From the NCBI GenBank assembly GCA_902524245.1, contig CABZCN010000001.1:248001-312000 (forward strand): 64,000 nucleotides of DNA. The letters run 5' to 3'. Each line of letters starts with the position of its first letter. Positions within the stretch are counted from its first letter, which is position 1. Made by a program: the position numbers and the translations under genes. The notes beneath the pieces were generated by a model, which saw nothing but the letters and a program-made list of their open reading frames with translations, searched no databases and was not told where the DNA came from. This stretch comes from an uncultured Alphaproteobacteria bacterium. Lineage in GTDB: Bacteria > Pseudomonadota > Alphaproteobacteria > HIMB59. Shown here piece after piece: positions 1,221-12,762 of the stretch.

Positions 1221-2725
1221 AGGTTTGTCTCGTTAAATGGATCAGTAATCTCTTTGAGAATAACAGGTGTTTTAATTTTTTCTAATCGGTGTTCATCAAT
1301 CATCATTCCTCTATAAAATGTAATCACTCTGTCAGGGAGATATGTGATTTCTTGGATATCAGTAGAGGCAAAAATAATTGTAATTCCTCTTGCTGCTAAT
1401 TCTCTCATTCTTTGATATATCTCTGATTTAGCACCAACATCAACACCTCTTGTCGGCTCATTCACAAGCAATACATCGGGCTTGATTGAAAGCCATTTTC
1501 CTAATGCTACTTTTTGTTGATTTCCGCCACTTAAAAGACCTGACTCATCGTGCATTCTTTTGACATCAATTAAGAACTCTTTTGCTAAATTTCTGGAATA
1601 ATTATCCTCAGAACTGCCAAAGTTAAAACCATATTTTGATATCGCACCAAGTGCTGGGGAGGTTAAATTCTCAAATATTGGACGTCCAAGAAAAAGACCA
1701 TCTTTTTTTCTATCGGAGGAGCAATATGCAATTTTTTTCTTTATAGCATGACTTGGTGATTTAGGTAAAAAGGTTTCACCGTTCAAAGTGAGTGAACCTG
1801 ATCTAGATTGAAGTGCACCTGCTATGGAGGCTAATACTTCACCTGCTCCACTACCAAGTTGCCCAGAGAGCCCAAGTATCTCTCCCTTGAAGGCTGAAAA
1901 ACTAACCGGCTCTAGAACGCCATCAGGCCAAAGTTCTTTTACTTCTAATTTTGGATCATCACTTATATGGTCAGCTTTTGATGGGAACATATTTGCCAAT
2001 TCTCTTCCAAGCATAATTTCAACTAGTTTATTTACATCAATATCTTTAGTTTCTTGAATACCTTGACTTACTCCGTCTCTTAATATTGTTATTCTTTTTG
2101 TAATCTTAAAAATTTCGTCCAGTCTATGACTTACATAAATTATTGATTTACCATTTGCAGCAAGACGCTCAACCATTTCTAAAATTCTTCGACTCTCTGC
2201 TTCACCTAACGCAGCTGTAGGCTCATCTAAAATTAAAATTTTTGCTTCTCTCGAAATTAGTCTAGCTACTTCTACCAAATGTTGTTCACCAACAGATAAT
2301 AAATTTATTCTAGTAGTTGGGTCTACTTCAGTTAATCCAACTTCATCAAGATATGGGCGTGCCATTTTTGCCAATGTATTAAGAGTGGCAAATTTTTTTA
2401 CTTTAGCTCCAGTAAGAAAAATATTTTCTGCAACTGACATATTAGGTATCAAACTTAATTCTTGTTGAGCAATAGCAATGCCAGACTCCTCTGCTTGTGA
2501 AGGCGTTTCAAATTTTACTTCTTTACCATTGATTTGATAGCTGCCTTTAAAACCAGGGTCAAATCCACTTATAATTTTAACAAGAGTTGATTTCCCAGCT
2601 CCATTTTCTCCAACTAGTCCCATAATTTCACCTTCGTTTATCTCAAAATTTGCTTCTTTTAGAGCCTGTATGGCCCCAAAAGTCCTAGAAACTTTTGAAA
2701 TTTTAAGAATTGGATTTGTGGACAT
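1217..2725 (-). CDS. CUT2 sugar ABC transporter ATPase, tandem ABC domains
   Basis: This 502-residue cytoplasmic ATPase drives sugar import and has two fused nucleotide-binding domains, as in RbsA and MglA. Domain 1 has an intact Walker A (GENGAGKST, residues 39-47), a signature variant LSVGEQ (about 143-148) and Walker B LILDEP (about 164-169). Domain 2 has LSGGNQQ and VNEPTRG near residues 395-425, but its Walker A position reads GQLGSGAGEV. This degenerate second P-loop is normal for the family and implies one main hydrolytic site. The gene follows the binding-protein gene after a strong hairpin and is coupled to the first permease by ATGA. The start ATG at 2725 has no clear ribosome site. 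Confidence 0.93.
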   Translation of the reverse strand: MSTNPILKISKVSRTFGAIQALKEANFEINEGEIMGLVGENGAGKSTLVKIISGFDPGFKGSYQINGKEVKFETPSQAEESGIAIAQQELSLIPNMSVAENIFLTGAKVKKFATLNTLAKMARPYLDEVGLTEVDPTTRINLLSVGEQHLVEVARLISREAKILILDEPTAALGEAESRRILEMVERLAANGKSIIYVSHRLDEIFKITKRITILRDGVSQGIQETKDIDVNKLVEIMLGRELANMFPSKADHISDDPKLEVKELWPDGVLEPVSFSAFKGEILGLSGQLGSGAGEVLASIAGALQSRSGSLTLNGETFLPKSPSHAIKKKIAYCSSDRKKDGLFLGRPIFENLTSPALGAISKYGFNFGSSEDNYSRNLAKEFLIDVKRMHDESGLLSGGNQQKVALGKWLSIKPDVLLVNEPTRGVDVGAKSEIYQRMRELAARGITIIFASTDIQEITYLPDRVITFYRGMMIDEHRLEKIKTPVILKEITDPFNETNL

Positions 2726-2762
2726 ATTAAAGAAGATTGTACACCTTATTTATTTATAAAAC

Positions 2763-2788
2763 ACACACAGGGATAGTTCCCTGTGTGT
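2763..2788 (-). promoter_or_regulatory. Intercistronic hairpin after the binding-protein gene of system 1
   Basis: This is a perfect 11-bp stem (2763-2773 with 2778-2788) around a four-base loop, rich in GT/AC and capped by GGGA/TCCC. It lies 26 bases past the binding-protein stop and 37 bases before the ATPase start. On the transcribed strand it is followed by GTTTTATAAAT, not a clean T-run. It is therefore better read as a partial terminator or 3'-end stabiliser than as a full stop. The likely effect is more binding-protein mRNA than transporter mRNA. Confidence 0.75.
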
Positions 2789-2814
2789 AAAAATTGTTAT
2801 GAAAAGACTAAAAC

Positions 2815-3858
2815 TTAGTCCCAAGCACCTGAGCAAAGCTCGTTGATGCCATATAACTTACCATCAAAACCTCTAAGTGCTGTGAAGTCCATAGTGGCAC
2901 CAGTCACTGAAGGGTTAGGTGTAAAGTTAATGTAGTTTGCTAGCTTACCGTTCTCCATGTACTCTTTAACAAGAGCTATAGCTAATTGACCTTCATGAAG
3001 AGGTGACTGTAGAGTAGTACCAAATTGCTTTCCATCAGTAATCATCTGCTTATCACCGTTACACACAGTACCAACTGTAATGACAGCATCACTATCTACA
3101 CTACCACTTTTGCCAGTACCTGCATACCAGTCAACGTTATAACCAGCTTCTTCTAAAGCCTTAATACCACCAGTTAAGATCGCATCGTCCATACCATATA
3201 CAAAATGAATTCCCTGATCTTTAACTTTAGCTATTAGCTTAGCTGCTCCTTTATAACCGTTAGCCTGTCCAAATCCCTCACCGATGTCACCGATAAGATT
3301 TAAGTCAGTTCCAGCGATAGCTTGTTTAAAAGCATTTATTGATAAGCCATATCCACCGTAAGAGTGAGGATATGATAATGCAATTACATTATATCCATCT
3401 CCACCAGCAGCTTGTTTCATCTTCATAGCTTTAACCATCATCTCACCTGCGTTATAAGCACGAAGACTATCATCTGGTCCGGCATATCCAAAGATGAATG
3501 CTTTATCTTGCTCATTAGGTAACTGATTGATTTTTAAAACTGGTACTCCAGTTTTAGCAAGCTTTCTTAACGAACCTAAACCTGCAACAGCATCAGGTGG
3601 CCACCAAATAAATACATCAGGTAGTGCACCACTTGACAAGTATTGTTCTACTTGTTGGTTTTGCTCTGCTTGGTTATAGTTGTTTTCAAAAACAGTAATA
3701 TCATAGCCATATTGCTCTGCTGTAGCTTTAATACCTTTAACGAACGCACCAACATAAGCCTCAGATGATGCAGCATTAAAAGACACGATTTCAACTGCCT
3801 TAGCTGAACCGAAAGAAAAGCACATTAGAACAGCTAATACTTTTATTAATTTGTTCAT
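2815..3858 (-). CDS. Periplasmic sugar-binding protein of system 1 (RbsB-like, PBP type 1)
   Basis: This is a 347-residue exported protein with a Sec signal peptide: lysines, a hydrophobic core and cleavage near FGSAKA-VE at about residue 21. The mature part has the type-1 periplasmic-binding-protein layout, with an N-lobe start VEIVSFNAASSEAYVGAFVK, a central hinge region and a second lobe containing FVYGMDDAILTGGIKALEEA. A consensus AGGAGG lies just upstream of the ATG, which marks a highly translated gene. It heads the operon and is divergent from the winged-helix/binding-protein fusion regulator. The ligand cannot be read from the sequence. Confidence 0.92.
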   Translation of the reverse strand: MNKLIKVLAVLMCFSFGSAKAVEIVSFNAASSEAYVGAFVKGIKATAEQYGYDITVFENNYNQAEQNQQVEQYLSSGALPDVFIWWPPDAVAGLGSLRKLAKTGVPVLKINQLPNEQDKAFIFGYAGPDDSLRAYNAGEMMVKAMKMKQAAGGDGYNVIALSYPHSYGGYGLSINAFKQAIAGTDLNLIGDIGEGFGQANGYKGAAKLIAKVKDQGIHFVYGMDDAILTGGIKALEEAGYNVDWYAGTGKSGSVDSDAVITVGTVCNGDKQMITDGKQFGTTLQSPLHEGQLAIALVKEYMENGKLANYINFTPNPSVTGATMDFTALRGFDGKLYGINELCSGAWD

Positions 3859-3905
3859 ATTGATCCTCCTAATATCCTTATGAAGAAATTATCCATGATT
3901 TATTA

Positions 3906-3940
3906 AGAGATTTAATCTCTAATATATTCAAATTGAATAT
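3906..3940. promoter_or_regulatory. Two adjacent palindromes, probable operators in a divergent promoter region
   Basis: The 112-bp gap between the system-1 binding protein and the regulator holds two perfect inverted repeats. One is AGAGATT-T-AATCTCT (3906-3920) and the other ATATTCAA-A-TTGAATAT (3924-3940). The second overlaps where the -35 of the regulator gene should lie, upstream of TATAAT at 3952-3957. This fits autoregulation plus control of the transporter operon. Binding by the neighbouring regulator is inference. Confidence 0.5.
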
Positions 3941-3951
3941 TTTAATGAATT

Positions 3952-3957
3952 TATAAT
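3952..3957 (+). promoter_or_regulatory. Putative -10 element of the regulator gene
   Basis: A perfect TATAAT ends 13 bases before the ATG at 3971. Transcription would begin about 7 bases before the start codon, so the mRNA leader is too short for a normal ribosome site, and none is seen. Confidence 0.45.
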
Positions 3958-3970
3958 ATAATACCTACAA

Positions 3971-5656
3971 ATGAATAGAAACGAGATTACCACTCTTTTA
4001 AAATTCGTTGATAAAACAAGACTTTTATTTAACAGATCTATTTCAATTAAAACAATTGACGCTGATTGGAATATTTTTTCTTATGTTATTATTAACCATC
4101 TAGACAATAAAATTACCACTACTACGAGTATCATCCAGGCATCAGGTTTGCCATTTGCAACTGGATTGAGAAGAGTAAAAAAACTTATTCAAGAAAAAAA
4201 ATTAATACAAAGATCAAAAACAAAATCAGGTAAATCGTTTTCTATACATCCAAGTAATAATCTCATTAAAGAATTCACGGATTATTTACTTTCAATCAAA
4301 AAAGAGGTGGCCCTGAACTTAGGTTACAGTGATTTTAATGATAATTATTTTTTTGGAACTTCTCTGTCTGCAGGAAATATTATACCTGCACCAAATGTTA
4401 TAATTAATCAAAATAAAAAATACAAAAAAATTAACTTTCTTGCCAATGATAATCCCACATTTAAAGTGATAGATAAGAATATTGATTTTTTTGAATACAT
4501 ACTCGATTGTGAAATTGAACTTATTATTGAAGGTGATTTGAAAAAACTACTTAATGTAATAATTAAAAATTCCTCATCAAATAAAAAGTCTAAATTTGAC
4601 ATAGTTGCTTTTAATATTCCATGGATTGGACAGTTAACTAAATTAAATTGCCTTCTTCCTTTGAATAATTTTGTTAAAGATGTTGGAATAAATTTGAATG
4701 ACTTTCACTATTCAGGAGTAAGATCAAGTTCTTTTAATAAAAAACTTTATGGGATTCCGATCGAAGCAATTCCTGATCTGTTATTTTATAGAACAGATAT
4801 TTTTCAAAAATATGCTTTGAGTCCACCAAAAACATTTCAGGATTTACTCCATGCTTGTGAGGTATTAAAAGGTGACAAACAGATAGAAAGTCCTATTTCT
4901 TGGCCAGCTAAAAAAGGTCAACCACTTGCTACTAGTTTTATTTTAGCAATGGCAAATTATGGAAAACCATATGTAAACCTTAGGTACATTGGGAAGAATA
5001 TTTATGATTTAGATGTTGAAAAAATACTATTAAAAGCAAATTTTTTATCTGATGCATCTTTTGAAGCAGCTAAAATGTTGAAAAAATTGACTTTGTACTC
5101 TCCAAATGAATTATCTGCTCATTCCAATGATGAATGTGTTGAATATTATAGTCAGGGTAAATCAGCTATGGCAATGAATTGGAGTAGTAGGGCCCATTTG
5201 TTCGAACTAAATGAGGCTTCACCTGCATATAAAAAAACTGGTTATTTACCAAGACCTGCTGGAAATTCCTCTTTTCAAGTATCTCCAATAGGTGGGTTTT
5301 CATTAGGCATACCCTCAAATATCTCTCCTGAAAAAATACCTTTTGTTATGAAAAATATTCGTAATTTTGTCTCTCCTGAATTTATAAAATATTATATTGA
5401 GCATGGTAGTTTATCATCTCCCGTTTTTAGTGTCGTAAATGATCCCGAAGTGAGAGCTTTAAGTCCAATATTTAATGAAATTGATAAAATGGAAAAGGAG
5501 GAAAAAATTATAGAATGGGCAAGATATCCTTTGCCAACCTATTCAAATATTATTGAAGATGTTGGTCATAAAATTTATGAGTATATTTTTTTGAATAAGG
5601 ATTTGGAAACTACACTAAAGAGTTGTCAACAAAGTGCCCAAAAGTATTTAAATTAA
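3971..5656 (+). CDS. Winged-helix / solute-binding-protein fusion, probable sugar-responsive transcriptional regulator
   Basis: The product is 561 residues with no signal peptide or transmembrane segment, so it should be cytoplasmic. Residues about 33-98 look like a MarR-type winged helix: a recognition-helix region near SGLPFATGLRRVKKLIQEKK and a wing near RSKTKSGKSFSIHPS. From about residue 152 to the end it resembles family-1 extracellular solute-binding proteins (MalE/UgpB type). Visible examples are FDIVAFNIPWIGQLTKLNCL, YGIPIEAIPDLLFYRTDIF, GKSAMAMNWSSRAH and PIGGFSLGIP. It is divergent from the system-1 transporter, and its stop lies one base from the convergent SDR gene. The inferred role is a one-component sensor that reads a cytoplasmic sugar with a captured binding-protein fold. 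The domain calls come from reading motifs, not a profile search. Confidence 0.7.
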   Translation: MNRNEITTLLKFVDKTRLLFNRSISIKTIDADWNIFSYVIINHLDNKITTTTSIIQASGLPFATGLRRVKKLIQEKKLIQRSKTKSGKSFSIHPSNNLIKEFTDYLLSIKKEVALNLGYSDFNDNYFFGTSLSAGNIIPAPNVIINQNKKYKKINFLANDNPTFKVIDKNIDFFEYILDCEIELIIEGDLKKLLNVIIKNSSSNKKSKFDIVAFNIPWIGQLTKLNCLLPLNNFVKDVGINLNDFHYSGVRSSSFNKKLYGIPIEAIPDLLFYRTDIFQKYALSPPKTFQDLLHACEVLKGDKQIESPISWPAKKGQPLATSFILAMANYGKPYVNLRYIGKNIYDLDVEKILLKANFLSDASFEAAKMLKKLTLYSPNELSAHSNDECVEYYSQGKSAMAMNWSSRAHLFELNEASPAYKKTGYLPRPAGNSSFQVSPIGGFSLGIPSNISPEKIPFVMKNIRNFVSPEFIKYYIEHGSLSSPVFSVVNDPEVRALSPIFNEIDKMEKEEKIIEWARYPLPTYSNIIEDVGHKIYEYIFLNKDLETTLKSCQQSAQKYLN

Positions 5657-5657
5657 A

Positions 5658-6479
5658 CTATTTTATTTCCATTTTTTCTGCAGGCTGAGGAGGTGCAAAA
5701 GGATATCCTCCCCACACCGACTGGTCAAAGTTTACAACAGAACCTGTCATCATACCTGAATCATCAGATGCTAAAAATGTAACTGCTTTAGCTACCTCTT
5801 TTGGATCAAGCAACCTTCCAAATGGTTGAGCTTTACCAGCATCTTCTAACCAATTTTCTGAGGCACCATGATATTTTGTTTGTATCTCATGTTCTCCATC
5901 TGAAGCCATCCAACCAATATTTAACTGATTAACTCTAATTTTATTTTTTAACAAAGCGAATGCTGTATTCCTTGTTAATGTTGCAAGTGCCCCTTTTGAT
6001 ACGCAATAAGTTGATATGAATGGTTGGCCAGTCATAGCTGCCACAGATCCAATATTAATAATTGAACCCTCTATGTTTTGTTCAATCATAATTTTCACTG
6101 TATCTTGTATAAGAAAATAAGGGCCTTTTAAGTTGGTGCCAATCATTTTATCGAACAGTTCTTCGCTCGTATTAACAATATCTCCCCTATCAGTAATACC
6201 GGCAGCGTTTACAAGAACATCCAATCTCCCAAATTCTTGTTTGGCAACTGAAACTGCATTTCTACACTCTTGGACCTCTCCAAGGTCTGTTTTTACAAAA
6301 ATTACTTTACACCCAGTTTCATCTTGAATTTTTTTTGATACATCATTTCCTTTATCCTCTTTTCTACCAATTGTGACAATACCTTCAGCTCCGCTATCGG
6401 CAAAATTTTTTGCAATTGCTGCTCCTAAACCTTGCGTTCCTCCAGTCACTAGTGCAAACTTTCCCTTAATACTATTCAT
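5658..6479 (-). CDS. SDR-family NAD(P)-dependent oxidoreductase, inositol/sugar cluster
   Basis: This is a 273-residue classical short-chain dehydrogenase. The Rossmann motif is TGGTQGLG (residues about 13-20). NAAG lies near residue 91, and the catalytic serine region (NIGSVAAM) is followed by YCVSK around residues 156-160. The length is usual for the family. The start overlaps the end of iolE by eight bases, so they are coupled and the substrate is probably an inositol-pathway ketone or alcohol. The C-terminal tail PFAPPQPAEKMEIK is longer than in typical members. The exact substrate is unknown. Confidence 0.85.
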   Translation of the reverse strand: MNSIKGKFALVTGGTQGLGAAIAKNFADSGAEGIVTIGRKEDKGNDVSKKIQDETGCKVIFVKTDLGEVQECRNAVSVAKQEFGRLDVLVNAAGITDRGDIVNTSEELFDKMIGTNLKGPYFLIQDTVKIMIEQNIEGSIINIGSVAAMTGQPFISTYCVSKGALATLTRNTAFALLKNKIRVNQLNIGWMASDGEHEIQTKYHGASENWLEDAGKAQPFGRLLDPKEVAKAVTFLASDDSGMMTGSVVNFDQSVWGGYPFAPPQPAEKMEIK

Positions 6480-7383
6480 CTCTATAATCCTCTATTTCAT
6501 ATCCATACATACTTAAGCATTCTACAAGTTCTTTATTTCCAATTTTAGCATATTCAAATGGGTTCGCTTTGGCGGGATCTTGCTCTGCCTCAACAATGAA
6601 CCATCCTTCGTAATTATTATTTGATAATGTCTCAACTACTTCCTTAAAATTAATATTTCCATCTCCAGGCACTGTGAAGGCTCCCTCTAATACAAAATCT
6701 AAAAAACTTTTTTTTGATCGATCTAAATTATTTACAACCTTTGAGCGAATGTCTTTAGCATGAAAGTGATTTATTCTTTTTGCGTATTTATTTATTACTC
6801 TCAAAGAGTTGCCTCCTGCAAAGGTCATATGGCCTGTATCAAATAAGATTTTTACTGCCTCACCTGTGTGGTTCATCAATTTATCAAGCTCATCCTCAGT
6901 CTCAATCGCTGTACCCATGTGATGATGAAATGAAATTGGCACACCAAAATCTGCACAAAATTCTGCAAATAATGTTAGTTTCCTTCCATACTCTTTAAAA
7001 TCCTCACTATGTATTTTTCTTTTTGTGTTTAAAGGAGCATGTCTAATATTTTGGATAGTTCCAGATGTTTCTCCATATGCTAAAACTGCTGCGCCTAGGT
7101 CTCTGAAGAGAGTGAGTTGTTGAAGGACTTTATCTTTTTCATTTTCTAAGTCATTATCTAGCACAGTTCCTGAATACCACCCTGATGCCAAGTATAGTTG
7201 GTGATTTTTTAAAATTGGACCAAGTTTTTCAGGAGTTTTTGGAAATTTTCCACCTGTTTCCACACCAGTAAATCCAGCAAGTTTTGACTCACTAAGGCAG
7301 GTATCCAGAGAAGTCTCTCCTCCAAGTTCAGGTAAATCATCATTGGACCATGCTATAGGTGCTATTCCCAATTTTGCTTTCAT
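6472..7383 (-). CDS. iolE: Inosose dehydratase (IolE)
   Basis: IolE dehydrates 2-keto-myo-inositol (scyllo-inosose) to a trihydroxycyclohexanedione, step two of inositol breakdown in the cytoplasm. The 303-residue product opens with the family pattern KLGIAPIAWSNDDLPELGGE. The remainder is a xylose-isomerase-like TIM barrel with likely metal ligands in FHHHMGTAIE, LFDTGHMTFAGG and INHFHAKD, and a late GWFIVEAEQD. Length matches known IolE. The ATG at 7383 has a strong AGGAGG upstream. The gene is divergent from iolG, leaving a shared 116-bp control region. Confidence 0.9.
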   Translation of the reverse strand: MKAKLGIAPIAWSNDDLPELGGETSLDTCLSESKLAGFTGVETGGKFPKTPEKLGPILKNHQLYLASGWYSGTVLDNDLENEKDKVLQQLTLFRDLGAAVLAYGETSGTIQNIRHAPLNTKRKIHSEDFKEYGRKLTLFAEFCADFGVPISFHHHMGTAIETEDELDKLMNHTGEAVKILFDTGHMTFAGGNSLRVINKYAKRINHFHAKDIRSKVVNNLDRSKKSFLDFVLEGAFTVPGDGNINFKEVVETLSNNNYEGWFIVEAEQDPAKANPFEYAKIGNKELVECLSMYGYEIEDYRDE

Positions 7384-7442: not shown

Positions 7443-7455
7443 ATTCAAAATGAAT
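7443..7455. promoter_or_regulatory. Palindrome ATTCA-N3-TGAAT in the iolE-iolG divergent region
   Basis: ATTCA AAA TGAAT is an inverted repeat differing by one base from the core of the palindrome at 3926-3938 (ATTCA AAT TGAAT) in front of the fusion regulator. A shared site in two divergent control regions of the same island suggests a common regulator. In such AT-rich DNA chance similarity is possible. Confidence 0.4.
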
Positions 7456-7499: not shown

Positions 7500-8504
7500 A
7501 TGAAAAAAGTTAGTATTGCAGTTATTGGGTGCGGGCGAATTGGCCAAATGCACGCTAAGAATATTCAACTTCATGAACAGACAAATTTAGTATGCATTTA
7601 TGACCCAAATGAAGAATTTGCAAAAAAAGTATCAAATGATTTAAACGTACTTGCTGTGGAAAATGTTGATGATATTTTTAACAATAATGATATTGATGCT
7701 ATTCTTATATCTTCCCCTACAAATACACATATTGATTTCATAGAGAGATCTGTTGCATCAAAAAAACCTGTTTTGTGTGAGAAACCTATTGACCTCGATA
7801 TAAAAAAAGTTGATGAGTTTTCAAGAAGACTTGAAGGTAATAAAGTTCCAATTCAATTAGGCTTTAATAGAAGATTTGATCCTGGTCATCAGGCTGCAAA
7901 AAAATCTTTTATTAATGGTGAAATTGGTGAGCTTCATCAATGTCTGATTACATCTAGAGATCCAGGTCTGCCTAGTTGGGATTATTTAAAAGTGTCCGGT
8001 GGGCAATTTAGAGATATGACAATTCATGATTTTGATTTAGCCCGTTTTATGCTTGGTGAAGAACCAGTTAAGGTATTTGCAATTTCTAATGCTTTAATAG
8101 ATCCAAAAATTAAATCTGAATTAAATGATAGTGACACCTTGATGATTATAATGGAAACAGCCTCGGGAAAACAATGTCATATAAACAACTCTAGATCAGC
8201 AACTTATGGATATGATCAAAGAGTTGAGTTGTTTGGTAGCAAAGGGATGGTTATATCTGAAAATAGAAAGCCACATGAATTGAAAAAATACAATTCAGAG
8301 TTTGTTGACAAGAGTGAACCCTATTTAAATTTTTTTATTGAGAGATACCAGGAGTCTTATATGAATTCTATTAGCTCATTTGTCGAAACAATTTTGGAAA
8401 AAAAGCCTGTATCTGTTGGTTTTGAGGACGGAAGAAGAGCTCTTCTCTTAGCTGAAACTGCTTATAAATCTGTCAAAAGTGGGAGGATGGAGAATATTGA
8501 TTAA
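7500..8504 (+). CDS. iolG: Inositol 2-dehydrogenase (IolG), Gfo/Idh/MocA family
   Basis: This 334-residue NAD-dependent enzyme oxidises myo-inositol to 2-keto-myo-inositol, the first catabolic step and the substrate of the neighbouring IolE. The N-terminal Rossmann motif is VIGCGRIGQMHAKN (residues 8-21). The conserved EKP lysine motif follows LCEKPIDL near residue 95, and the catalytic loop reads GGQFRDMTIHDFDLARFM. Length is normal. It is divergent from iolE across 116 bp and followed by an aldolase gene 75 bp later. Sugar-dehydrogenase relatives look similar, but the pairing with IolE favours inositol. Confidence 0.87.
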   Translation: MKKVSIAVIGCGRIGQMHAKNIQLHEQTNLVCIYDPNEEFAKKVSNDLNVLAVENVDDIFNNNDIDAILISSPTNTHIDFIERSVASKKPVLCEKPIDLDIKKVDEFSRRLEGNKVPIQLGFNRRFDPGHQAAKKSFINGEIGELHQCLITSRDPGLPSWDYLKVSGGQFRDMTIHDFDLARFMLGEEPVKVFAISNALIDPKIKSELNDSDTLMIIMETASGKQCHINNSRSATYGYDQRVELFGSKGMVISENRKPHELKKYNSEFVDKSEPYLNFFIERYQESYMNSISSFVETILEKKPVSVGFEDGRRALLLAETAYKSVKSGRMENID

Positions 8505-8579: not shown

Positions 8580-9401
8580 ATGATTGAAAACAAAGTAAAA
8601 GCTAAATGGCAAAAAAAAGAAGTGGTTGTTAATAGCTTTTTATCAATACCTAATACTTTTACTGCTGAAATTATGTCTGAGCAAGGTTATGACGCCCTTA
8701 CCATTGACTATCAACATGGGATGATTGGCTTTAGTGATTTATTTAAAATGTTGCAAAGTATTAGAAATAGTGGTGTCACTCCAATCTGTAGAGTTTCAGG
8801 ATTAGATCACGCAGTAATATCGAAAGTTATGGATGCAGGTGCTTTGGGTATCATTTGCCCAATGATTAATAATAAAGAGCAAGCACAAAAACTTGTTCAA
8901 GATTGTAAATATCCACCTGTAGGTATTAGAAGTTTTGGTCCGACGAGAGCTAACTTTTCCGTTAGTTCAAATTATTTTTATGAGTCAAATGAGGGAACGT
9001 TTTGTCTTGCCATGATAGAAACTCAAGAAGCATTTGATAATCTTGATGATATAGCATCCACTCCTGGTCTTGATGGCCTTTATATCGGGACAGCAGATTT
9101 AACAATAGGGCTGAACCAAGGAAATTTAACACCTGGGTTTGATCGAACAGAACCTGAAATGATTGAGTCTAAAAAGAAAATTTTAGATATTGCTCATAAA
9201 CATGGAAAAGTTGCATGTCTTCATTGTGGGACTCCAGAGTATGCTGCCAAGGCATCCGAATGGGGTTTTGATCTTGTAACAATTACAAATGATGTAAGGT
9301 TGTTATCTGGAGCAGCAGCCACTCATGTGAGAAAATTCAAAGAGCTTACTAATCAAAACTACGATGAGTCTGATAAAGATAATAATCCTAGCTCTTACTA
9401 G
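8580..9401 (+). CDS. HpcH/HpaI-family class II aldolase (2-keto-3-deoxy sugar-acid type)
   Basis: This 273-residue TIM-barrel enzyme belongs to the 2-dehydro-3-deoxyglucarate / 4-hydroxy-2-oxoheptanedioate aldolase family, which cleaves 2-keto-3-deoxy acids to pyruvate and an aldehyde with a divalent metal. Visible family motifs are YDALTIDYQHGMIGFSDL (residues about 39-56), GALGIICPMIN, PPVGIRSFGPTRANF, the metal-site glutamate in AMIETQEAFDNL, and GLYIGTADLTIGL. It follows iolG and ends eight bases from a convergent ATPase gene. In this setting it may take the place of the usual IolJ aldolase in a variant inositol or sugar-acid route; that is inference. Confidence 0.85.
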   Translation: MIENKVKAKWQKKEVVVNSFLSIPNTFTAEIMSEQGYDALTIDYQHGMIGFSDLFKMLQSIRNSGVTPICRVSGLDHAVISKVMDAGALGIICPMINNKEQAQKLVQDCKYPPVGIRSFGPTRANFSVSSNYFYESNEGTFCLAMIETQEAFDNLDDIASTPGLDGLYIGTADLTIGLNQGNLTPGFDRTEPEMIESKKKILDIAHKHGKVACLHCGTPEYAAKASEWGFDLVTITNDVRLLSGAAATHVRKFKELTNQNYDESDKDNNPSSY

Positions 9402-10200: not shown

Positions 10201-11784
10201 CTAAATACTACCCATAATTCGTTTTCTAATATTTTCGTTAGTCAAAGCAGAAGCTATGATTACTAACCCTAAGAATACTCTATAAAATGATCCGTCTATG
10301 CCTGGAATATAAAAGAATGCTTCTTTAGCAACACCAAATATAAATGCGCCTACAACAATACCGAGTATGGTGCCAAAACCTCCTGTTAAAACAACACCAC
10401 CAATCACAGCTGCAGCAATTGCCTCTAATTCTTTTAAATTACCTTTAGCCGCGTCTGCTGTATTAACTTCAAAAACTTGAGCGGTTGCAAAAATTGTTGC
10501 ACAAAAAGCAGAAAACATAAATAGAGATACTTTAACCTTATCTGTAGGTACACCATTTGCCTTGGCTGCACTCAGATTTCCACCAGTTGAGTAAATCCAG
10601 TTACCTGCTTGAGTTTTGCTCAGTACAATGTAACAAATAATCGCTAAAATTAGCCAAATCATGACGCAGGAATATAAACCAGAGGCAAACTGATTTCCAA
10701 AATTATTAGTGTTCCAGTCAATCGGGTAATAAAGCCAATCAAAAACAGGTTCTAAAATATCTCCACCAAAAAAATTCGCAACGGGGCGAGCAGTAATGAG
10801 AGAGTCAATGTAAACTCTTGCTATATCAACATCAGTAACTGTTTTTGGTACTACTGGATCGATTTGAAAGTTAGCAATTTTTTCTTGTATCATGCCAACC
10901 ATATAATCATTTCCACTTTGCTGAGCGTTTGCTAAAGCCTCTTGTAAAGGTTTAGTTCCTTTATCAAGCAAAATTTGTGTCTTGGCTTCGGCTACTCTTT
11001 GGTAAGTATATTCTAATCTATCTGTAATTGTTGCAACAGTATCAGCTGGTATATCTTTGGCTATAGCTACTAGATCAGCTTCCGGTAAAGCTTTTGCTTT
11101 TTCTCTTACCATTTCTCCATGGCCAGGAACATTTACAATATTTTTTATATCTGGAATCTCTGTGACAGTAGTCGCCCCTTTTGTCTGATCTGGTCTATGA
11201 TTAAAAGATCTTAGAGAAACTTCTGTTAATCCTCTGAGAAAAAATAAGCCCCCAAGTGTAACAATAAATGATGGCAAACCAGACTTCACAACAATAGTTC
11301 CTTGTAACCAACCAAAAAATAAAGTGAAGCATAAAGTTATAAAGATAGCTAAAATTGGAGAGACATCAGAGATGTGAAATAACGTGTAAAATTCAATATG
11401 AAAACCACCTTCGAAAGATATGTAAGGTATGATGACTGAAAAACCCCATCTTAAGATCATTGCCATGCAGGCACCAGCGAAACCAATCATTGATCCGATT
11501 GAAAGATCAAATTCTCCAGCGATTATTAATAAACCTGCTCCTATTGCAATTATACCTAATTGAGAAATAACTCTTAAAAAATTTCTAATACCAAGAGCAT
11601 TAAAACCCTCACCGGTAAAGGGGTTCCATGACATCTCCCCAGCTGGAATTGAAAAGTAGCCCAACATACCAAATAAAAGGAGCATCACTCCTATTGGACC
11701 GACTTCTGGTCTAGATATTAATGCTGTAAACCATGTCTTTTTTTGATGTCTATCTGACTCTTGTCTTTGAGTTGTAGCTGACAT
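10201..11784 (-). CDS. Sugar ABC transporter permease of system 2 with a large inserted loop domain
   Basis: This permease has 527 residues, against about 320-360 for ordinary RbsC-type proteins. The family signature reads AGEFDLSIGS (about 89-98), then LPSFIVTLGGLFFLRGL (170-186), and the normal C-terminal half resumes near 365 (AGNWIYSTGGNLSAAKANG, then VIGGVVLTGGFGT). Between them, residues about 196-335 are hydrophilic, charged and helix-prone. By comparison with RbsC topology this stretch sits in the periplasmic loop after the fourth or fifth helix, facing the binding protein. The adjacent ATPase and binding-protein genes show the system is complete. Role of the insert is unknown; docking or ligand gating is a guess. 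Confidence 0.9.
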   Translation of the reverse strand: MSATTQRQESDRHQKKTWFTALISRPEVGPIGVMLLLFGMLGYFSIPAGEMSWNPFTGEGFNALGIRNFLRVISQLGIIAIGAGLLIIAGEFDLSIGSMIGFAGACMAMILRWGFSVIIPYISFEGGFHIEFYTLFHISDVSPILAIFITLCFTLFFGWLQGTIVVKSGLPSFIVTLGGLFFLRGLTEVSLRSFNHRPDQTKGATTVTEIPDIKNIVNVPGHGEMVREKAKALPEADLVAIAKDIPADTVATITDRLEYTYQRVAEAKTQILLDKGTKPLQEALANAQQSGNDYMVGMIQEKIANFQIDPVVPKTVTDVDIARVYIDSLITARPVANFFGGDILEPVFDWLYYPIDWNTNNFGNQFASGLYSCVMIWLILAIICYIVLSKTQAGNWIYSTGGNLSAAKANGVPTDKVKVSLFMFSAFCATIFATAQVFEVNTADAAKGNLKELEAIAAAVIGGVVLTGGFGTILGIVVGAFIFGVAKEAFFYIPGIDGSFYRVFLGLVIIASALTNENIRKRIMGSI

Positions 11785-11819
11785 GATTAAATGTAAATAA
11801 ATACTCTCAGTAATTATTA

Positions 11820-11845
11820 AAAGTGGGCAATAAATTGCCCACTTT
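11820..11845 (-). promoter_or_regulatory. Intercistronic hairpin after the binding-protein gene of system 2
   Basis: A perfect 11-bp stem (11820-11830 with 11835-11845) has core GTGGGC/GCCCAC and loop TAAA. It lies 14 bases after the binding-protein stop and 35 bases before the permease start. On the transcribed strand the bases after the stem are TAATAATTACTGAG, not a poly-T tract. It matches the placement of the hairpins at 2763 and 23438 and probably limits expression of the membrane genes. Confidence 0.78.
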
Positions 11846-11859
11846 AAGATTAAATAAAA

Positions 11860-12762
11860 TTATCTATCAATACCTGCTAGTGCAGAAACTGATGATGCGT
11901 TTGACTTGTCAACAAATCCAGGTCCTGAAGGAATATTAGCACCTGGTAATAGTCCAGCACCGTTGTTGTACAGGTGAAGAACTACGATAGGCATATAACC
12001 TTGTAGACGTTGTTGTTGGTCGATTGTGTATGCAACTTTTCCTGAAGCGATTAAATCCATAACTTCTGGACTTAAGTCAAAACAAGAGTGGTGTACTGAC
12101 ATACCTAAATCATCAATAGCTTTTTGAACACCTGAACAAACGTGTGGTCCAACTGATAATACAGCATCGACGTCAGGGTTTGCTTGTAAACCAGCAGCAG
12201 CTCTTGTTGGGATTGAAGCAGGGTCATTAGAAGTGTCTACGTTAGTTGTTGGTAGAGCTTCTGCGTAACCGCCACATCTATCTGTAAGAGCAGTGTTGTA
12301 AGCTTCCTGAATCATGCAAAGTGCTTTAGTTGCACCTTCTGCTTTAGCTCTTTCACCAGCTTTTTGACCAGCAAGAAATTCAGGCTGACCAACGTGCATT
12401 AATGCGCCAAGAGAAGCTGAAGACTCTAAACCTGAGTTCATAGTAATAACTGGAATACCAGCAGCAACAGCATCTTTGATTGCTTGACCTAAAGCTTCTG
12501 GATCAGGAAGTGAAACTACCATACCATCAGGCTGAGTAGCAGCGGCAGCTGCAATTGACTTAGCCATGTCACCTAGGTCTCCAGATGGATTGAAAATGTA
12601 TTCAAAATCTGCACCTACGTGTCTAGCAGCATCTTCACCACCTTTTTGCACAACAGGCCAGAAAGGGTCTTTACCCTCACCGTGTGTAACCATTACAAAT
12701 CTCTCAGCAAAAGCAGAAAGAGATAGGAATGATACAAGAATTGTAAGAATTATTTTTTTCAT
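11860..12762 (-). CDS. Periplasmic sugar-binding protein of system 2
   Basis: This is a 300-residue exported PBP type-1 protein. The signal peptide is MKKIILTILVSFLSLSAFA, cleaved before ERF. The mature start RFVMVTHGEGKDPFWPVVQK resembles the RbsB/FrcB superfamily pattern. Two cysteines (CMIQEAY and DRCGG) and a later pair (HVCSG, HHSCF) could form disulphides. A strong AGGAGGA precedes the ATG. It heads the operon and is divergent, across 191 bp, from a TIM-barrel isomerase gene that may act on the imported sugar. Ligand unknown. Confidence 0.9.
   Translation of the reverse strand: MKKIILTILVSFLSLSAFAERFVMVTHGEGKDPFWPVVQKGGEDAARHVGADFEYIFNPSGDLGDMAKSIAAAAATQPDGMVVSLPDPEALGQAIKDAVAAGIPVITMNSGLESSASLGALMHVGQPEFLAGQKAGERAKAEGATKALCMIQEAYNTALTDRCGGYAEALPTTNVDTSNDPASIPTRAAAGLQANPDVDAVLSVGPHVCSGVQKAIDDLGMSVHHSCFDLSPEVMDLIASGKVAYTIDQQQRLQGYMPIVVLHLYNNGAGLLPGANIPSGPGFVDKSNASSVSALAGIDR

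Follow-up and report, generated by a model that had tools for sequence, protein, structure and literature searches.

The window, a 64,000-nt stretch of DNA from an uncultured alphaproteobacterium, encodes a 561-residue protein in which a MarR-like winged helix is fused to a complete family-1 solute-binding protein (SBP) domain. We consider it likely (probability of roughly 0.7) that this protein is a one-component regulator of a carbohydrate or cyclitol uptake and catabolism cluster, with the winged helix acting on a conserved palindrome and a cytoplasmic flytrap serving as the sensor.

The regulator gene is a single open reading frame on the forward strand, running from the ATG at position 3971 to the stop codon at 5656 (561 codons, no internal stops), and its assignment combines the reading frame itself, Pfam, profile alignment and a model of the N-terminus. 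It comprises a MarR-like winged-helix domain (residues about 27–117, positions 4049–4321; delimited by model, Foldseek and conservation), a partly conserved linker taken from the homologue alignment (residues about 118–151, 4322–4423) and a complete MalE-like domain (residues about 152–561, 4424–5653; Pfam and profile alignment), all on the same strand. For comparison, we assembled 62 homologous instances in 59 loci, selected as matches of more than 380 residues, the window, L067 and L071 being the three loci that represent its genus. All 62 translate across both domains without a stop, and both domains of the regulator are under purifying selection (dN 0.15–0.32 in ten comparisons, with dS of 1.6–2.8 in eight of them and not computable in two), which together exclude a frameshift artefact and uphold the single fused gene assumed in the initial annotation. 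Pairwise distances of the winged helix and the SBP domain co-vary closely (Spearman 0.87 over 1,891 pairs), and the fusion is inherited as one unit. Conservation across the 62 homologues extends through every part of the protein, with R67 (100%), G87 (95%), H93 (92%) and P94 (98%) standing out in the winged helix, the last three within the wing motif GKSFSxHP (residues 87–94), G129 kept in 92% within the linker, and a mean majority-residue frequency of 0.63–0.66 along the length of the SBP domain.

Evidence for the N-terminal winged helix, a feature the initial annotation had called correctly, comes mainly from structure. The AlphaFold2 model of residues 1–126 (pLDDT 85.3, pTM 0.78) has the topology H-H-H-H-beta-beta-H, with four helices ahead of a two-stranded wing and one more helix after it. 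Among the 50 PDB matches listed by Foldseek, most are MarR-family regulators with probabilities of 0.95–1.00, at E-values of 0.004–0.043 (none below 0.001) and query TM-scores of 0.37–0.57. Sequence profiles point the same way more faintly. The first 150 residues of the window protein gave no Pfam match up to E 1, and 13 N-termini of the family gave only weak ones (HTH_24 in six, MarR_2 in five, MarR in two; best E 1.3e-4). No curated MarR or MarR_2 cut-off was reached by the window protein or by the two homologues with scores (MarR_2 14.7 against 27; MarR 15.4 against 24.6), and the full regulator matched the MarR regulator TcaR weakly over residues 3–85 (E 0.0065, 16.5 bits against a cut-off of 170). 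When a 13-member N-terminal profile was compared with the PDB, it met TubR (E 0.0018), a MarR protein (0.044) and a SlyA-like protein (0.073), as well as a ribosomal protein at chance level (0.13).

The C-terminal domain is recognized by Pfam, with SBP_bac_1 matching residues 201–450 of the window protein (E 4.3e-19, 70.1 bits against a cut-off of 26) and SBP_bac_8 reaching 62.9 bits against 27, as expected from the initial annotation. An 11-member family profile aligned residues 155–558 with residues 31–421 of the 422 of the solved protein 5iai (E 4e-45), whose ligand is presumably ribitol, and the binding protein is therefore complete; further PDB matches of this profile include 1eu8 (8e-36), 6dtq (1e-26) and 4rya, labelled ‘Sorbitol’ (3e-24). 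Since a full-length structure prediction from eight sequences was poor (pLDDT 49), the assignment of the SBP fold rests on sequence. In keeping with a cytoplasmic location, as originally suggested, the hydropathy of four members gave no hydrophobic leader or signal peptide: the regulator's highest 19-residue Kyte-Doolittle mean is 1.16 overall and 0.85 among residues 1–60, compared with 1.84 in the signal region of the SBP that belongs to the neighbouring importer. It is very improbable that the protein is an ordinary exported SBP with an odd N-terminal extension, a reading encouraged by the label ‘extracellular solute-binding protein’ carried by most plasmid-borne homologues (see below) and opposed by the missing signal peptide, the MarR-like N-terminal model, the importer's possession of its own leader-bearing SBP and the conserved palindrome described below.

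The regulator gene lies 112 bp from, and divergent to, a CUT2 importer operon on the reverse strand, which encodes a periplasmic binding protein with a signal-like leader (Peripla_BP_4; 2815–3858), an AraG/RbsA-like ATPase scoring below equivalog cut-offs (1217–2725) and a CUT2-type permease identified by the same gene order in relatives (180–1220). A second permease gene and an SDR gene prolong this operon immediately beyond the upstream edge of the window (L110). The claim of a CUT2 importer with its own binding protein beside the regulator is thereby borne out by Pfam and NCBIfam matches and by gene order in relatives. The sensor belongs to family 1 and is thus no copy of the importer's SBP, which is of the CUT2 type. 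On the other side of the regulator follow an SDR oxidoreductase (5658–6479) and the inosose dehydratase gene iolE (6472–7383; TIGR04379, 394.2 bits against a cut-off of 290) on the reverse strand, and the inositol 2-dehydrogenase gene iolG (7500–8504; TIGR04380, 396.6 bits against 355) and an HpcH/HpaI-type aldolase (8580–9401; PF03328, 89.9 bits against 25) on the forward strand. These iolE and iolG neighbours, together with the ‘Sorbitol’ label of 4rya, indicate a polyol or cyclitol ligand; more broadly, the ligand would be a sugar, polyol or cyclitol, and a cyclitol or polyol as the substrate is no more than a reasonable guess. The idea that an E1-type operon stands in for a missing IolD was weakened by an iolD gene scoring above cut-off about 100 kb away in the genome, in which an iolB-like gene scores below cut-off. 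Four CUT2-type importers occur within about 25 kb of this 1.37-Mb genome (180–3858, 9410–12762, 14739–18976 and 22352–25335), two of them recognized by a Pfam match of their SBP and the others by BLAST cross-matches.

A survey of homologues for kept CUT2 adjacency, which the initial annotation had called for, found a CUT2-type SBP or ATPase gene within 6 kb in 57 of the 62 cases. A divergent SBP gene within 500 bp and an M24 gene are each present in 37 of 62, and an IolG-like gene in 12. In the relative G111 (L073), the second permease and the SDR gene are followed by genes for an M24-family protein and an E1-type dehydrogenase; the best NCBIfam match of the M24-family protein is DddP, at 104 bits far under the cut-off of 600. 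A recurring catabolic operon adjoining the regulator comprises SDR, M24-family protein, E1-alpha and E1-beta genes (L073 13906–17974; L077 10309–16539), to which Tritonibacter and Phaeobacter add a lipoyl-domain protein and an aldehyde dehydrogenase.

Between the regulator and the SBP gene lies the palindrome ATATTCAAATTGAATAT (3924–3940, no strand assigned; candidate operator 1), with the core ATTCA-AAT-TGAAT at 3926–3938. In an alignment of 13 orthologues whose proteins are 62–100% identical, 15 of its 17 columns are invariant, compared with 12 of the 96 other intergenic columns, and the exact form ATYCA-N3-TGRAT is kept in all 13. The sole sigma-70-like promoter match between 3800 and 4000, TTGAAT-18-TATAAT on the forward strand (3933–3962), is a consensus match ahead of the regulator (one found, against 1.6 expected in shuffles), and its -35 element (TTGAAT, 3933–3938) lies inside candidate operator 1. 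A second candidate operator, ATTCA-AAA-TGAAT (7443–7455, no strand assigned), occupies the divergent intergenic stretch between iolE and iolG; it is kept in a clade with iolG 97–100% identical (a comparison made without L071) and is absent from the 77% relative L073, hence not genus-wide. These two are the window's only sites of the form ATYCAWWWTGRAT (at 3926 and 7443), both in the regulator cluster (0.34 expected; 6 of 100 shuffles reach two), and none was found at the window's other three CUT2-type importers. A third site, ahead of the SDR gene and some 0.86 kb outside the window on the upstream side, recurs in L067, L071 and L073, so that three of the genome's eight sites of this form fall in 8.3 kb at the regulator cluster. 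The remaining five are located within or bordering other ORFs, and genome-wide there is no excess of the palindrome (eight sites against seven for the reversed pattern).

Distant homologues carry palindromes resembling ATCCA-N3-TGGAT at the equivalent position. A scan of 11,264 palindromes (1,024 arms × 11 spacers), from which the window, L067 and L071 were left out, ranked ATCCA-N3-TGGAT first, with matches in 16 of 58 loci compared with four background matches in 736 kb; the p-value of 7e-26 treats the loci as independent and overstates that independence, because homologous loci are related. The runner-up was this site displaced by a single base, and the third, TGGAT-N8-ATCCA, is the gap between two sites 21 bp apart. 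Within the 600-bp start region, 25 of the 62 loci have an exact site (31 sites in about 37 kb), against nine exact sites in 825 kb of flanking background, an enrichment that is conservative since some background sites are probably real (position 7443 of the window, two of three in L078, and 10704 in L071). When 60 rearrangements of the arm were compared, the true arm scored best (25 loci), followed by ATCYA, which contains ATCCA (16 loci); the next arm scored 4 loci. A site with at most one mismatch is present in 35 of 37 divergent loci (exact in 22) and in 4 of 25 non-divergent ones (exact in 3); because loci lacking the divergent arrangement seldom carry it, the palindrome belongs to one branch of the family. 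An exact site at the regulator start is absent from 37 of the 62 loci, a group that takes in G277a, G503, each of the three G829 copies and 15 loci of the divergent set of 37; in G503, two sites instead precede the SBP gene of the operon.

The spacing of these sites is regular. Among sites with at most one mismatch, 17 pairs are exactly 21 bp apart, and no other single spacing occurs more than four times; the grouped distances of 82–83 bp and 103–104 bp are seen five and eight times, and each remaining distance once. Being two helical turns apart, the 21-bp pairs suggest two dimers side by side, and the further sites 82–83 or 103–104 bp away at some loci may indicate operator looping. The Tritonibacter mobilis homologue OMR53_RS21160 has an exact palindrome that belongs to a 21-bp pair. 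Such pairing was not seen at the site in the window or in its close relatives.

We also weighed whether the palindrome is the operator of another regulator of the same operons, the fusion protein binding elsewhere. It is by position that the palindrome is assigned to the fusion protein, and in G662 a nearby gene (L105 2952–3998) has an N-terminus that looks LacI-type by eye over 24 residues. A control of 30 CUT2-type SBP loci from genomes lacking the regulator (112 kb) contained no exact and five one-mismatch sites, and is weak, because only about 1.2 exact sites would be expected and the SBPs concerned share no more than 35% identity with the one linked to the regulator, of which no close relative was found in any of 20 regulator-free genomes searched. 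On balance, we regard a foreign operator as quite unlikely, given that the palindrome adjoins the regulator gene in nearly all divergent loci across many genera, leads the whole scan and, as a two-fold 13-bp site, is a fitting target for a dimeric winged helix.

The family is not confined to the window's genome. At the order level, E 1e-15 or better was reached in 37 of 162 genomes, several of these matches being ordinary SBPs or contig fragments, and matches spanning residue 1 to at least residue 548 are confined, within the order, to genus g1. In a sample of 385 genomes of the class, 13 have the N-terminal domain at E 0.001 or better; the eight genomes at E 1e-12 or better all have frames of 564–641 residues, and the weaker ones have 182–386 residues. 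A phylum sample yielded 28 of 398 genomes at E 0.001 or better and six at 1e-34 or better, one of them outside the class. Class and phylum matches weaker than E 1e-12 were followed for receiver-domain fusions, and G189 and G813 by gene order. At E 1e-12 or better, the domain was detected in 35 of the 198 genomes sampled from G314's alphaproteobacterial family; the order of G777 gave 15 of 150 and that of G662 1 of 145. Regions holding 41 regulators were fetched from 58 new matches in the family of G314 and the order of G777. The initial annotation had proposed a captured cytoplasmic sugar sensor: the conserved operator-like palindrome favours the reading as a cytoplasmic regulator, and the presence of the fusion in many Alphaproteobacteria and in one sampled genome of another class shows that the capture is not peculiar to this genome.

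Plasmids carry the family as well. In PLSDB, 80% or more of the query length is matched by 31 records (27–34% identity), of which 25 are annotated as ‘extracellular solute-binding protein’ and one as ‘ABC-type sugar transport system, periplasmic component’, the remainder having no feature (three) or no annotation at all (two). The surroundings were read in six of the 31 records; in those from Agrobacterium, Sinorhizobium and Loktanella (27–29% identical), the neighbours are other sugar-oxidation and transport genes, and the regulator family is therefore not tied to one substrate.

Several related arrangements were seen alongside. In two relatives, in G125 and G149, the winged helix occurs on its own, with no SBP domain; such stand-alone versions, of 144–146 residues, are encoded at L068 4400–4840 and L069 4813–5247 (both forward strand). 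In their neighbourhood are PF04199 cyclase-type genes and an SBP_bac_8 gene whose Tat-signal match is weak. The selection for more than 380 residues meant that such proteins could not enter the set of 62. In L079 (7507–8574, forward strand), and also in L061, L063 and L064, a Response_reg receiver is fused to a distantly related winged helix, a related DNA-binding module with a different input. L067 holds two paralogous fusion regulators in one cluster (2676–4370 and 10261–11961, both reverse strand), with an exact palindrome upstream of each, the second being 41% identical to the window's regulator. Two paralogues about 6 kb apart face each other across CUT2 genes in L101 (7080–16343) and L156 (5892–15125).

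In the mechanism that we propose, the MarR-like winged helix would bind ATYCA-N3-TGRAT in the divergent promoter of the regulator and the CUT2 SBP gene and ahead of the SDR gene lying beyond the importer genes, with the iolE/iolG promoter as a possible further target. It is the two-fold symmetry of the site that suggests dimerization of the winged helices. The family-1 flytrap, predicted to be cytoplasmic, would close on the imported solute or an early catabolite, and closure would alter the presentation or geometry of two winged helices. The regulator is probably autoregulated, and autorepression relieved by ligand would be the simplest sign of control, since candidate operator 1 covers the -35 element of the regulator's only promoter-like match, if that match is real. 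A rather unlikely variant, and the most serious of those considered, is that the family-1 domain of a DNA-binding regulator no longer reads the imported solute and serves oligomerization, another metabolite or a protein partner instead. The sensor is indeed of family 1 and not of the importer's own SBP family, the regular spacings of 21, 82–83 and 103–104 bp suggest contacts between oligomers, and the signal of SgrR is not simple either, this regulator being able to bind glutamate according to one study (PMC13060122). Against this stand the completeness of the SBP domain, its conservation along its length, the purifying selection acting on it and the proximity to CUT2-type genes in 57 of the 62 cases.

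With confidence only a little above even, we extend the proposed mechanism to an unrecognized class of regulators annotated as ‘extracellular solute-binding protein’; their family-1 flytrap would sense an imported sugar or cyclitol inside the cell and control CUT2 importers. A similarly modest leaning applies to its further parts, namely that the operators of the class would be ATYCA-N3-TGRAT sites, often in tandem 21 bp apart, and that the class arose by a separate recruitment of the binding-protein fold. If a regulator class with a defined operator is true, many CUT2 regulons become predictable, and the family would provide another separately testable case of a flytrap turned into a cytoplasmic switch beside LacI, LysR and SgrR; biosensor scaffolds for polyols would also be possible.

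Fusions of a DNA-binding domain to a periplasmic-binding-protein fold are familiar from LacI/GalR and Btr-type regulators, the sensor being a type-1 sugar-binding fold in LacI and a siderophore-binding fold in Btr (AraC type), neither of them family 1, and GntR-SBP_bac_1 fusions probably occur in Firmicutes. Among the titles and abstract openings listed by our literature searches, which covered few subscription papers, none described a winged-helix/SBP_bac_1 regulator. Compared with the MarR family, the window's regulator shares the winged-helix topology, the similarity of its model and a palindromic site at its own divergent promoter, and differs in that the MarR chains among the Foldseek matches listed have about 130–170 residues, to which it adds a 400-residue flytrap. 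The initial annotation regarded the architecture as non-standard; as a concept it has a precedent in SgrR and its Vibrio homologue DsvR, which the same study describes as an N-terminal HTH with a C-terminal SBP_bac_5 domain, SgrR being negatively autoregulated (PMC13060122); the unusual feature is that the solute-binding domain joined to a MarR-like one belongs to family 1. The likeness to SgrR and DsvR lies in the joining of an HTH and a solute-binding domain in one regulator; they use SBP_bac_5 in place of SBP_bac_1 and SBP_bac_8, and the gene context is sgrS/setA for SgrR and CUT2 importers here. Up to E 1, Pfam found no SBP_bac_5 in the window protein (only SBP_bac_1, SBP_bac_8 and a below-cut-off PI-PLC-Y), and no SgrR-type N-terminal model matched either the window protein or 13 N-terminal domains of the family (24 families matched). 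In two-component systems, SBP_bac_1 is listed as a sensing domain in an Azospirillum survey (PMC4618731). Among known systems, the C-terminal domain is close to CUT1 SBPs, and its alignment takes in almost all of 5iai, 1eu8 and 4rya and, in 6dtq, begins at residue 79; these are transport components, whereas the window's regulator has no signal peptide by hydropathy and is encoded beside an importer of the CUT2 type.
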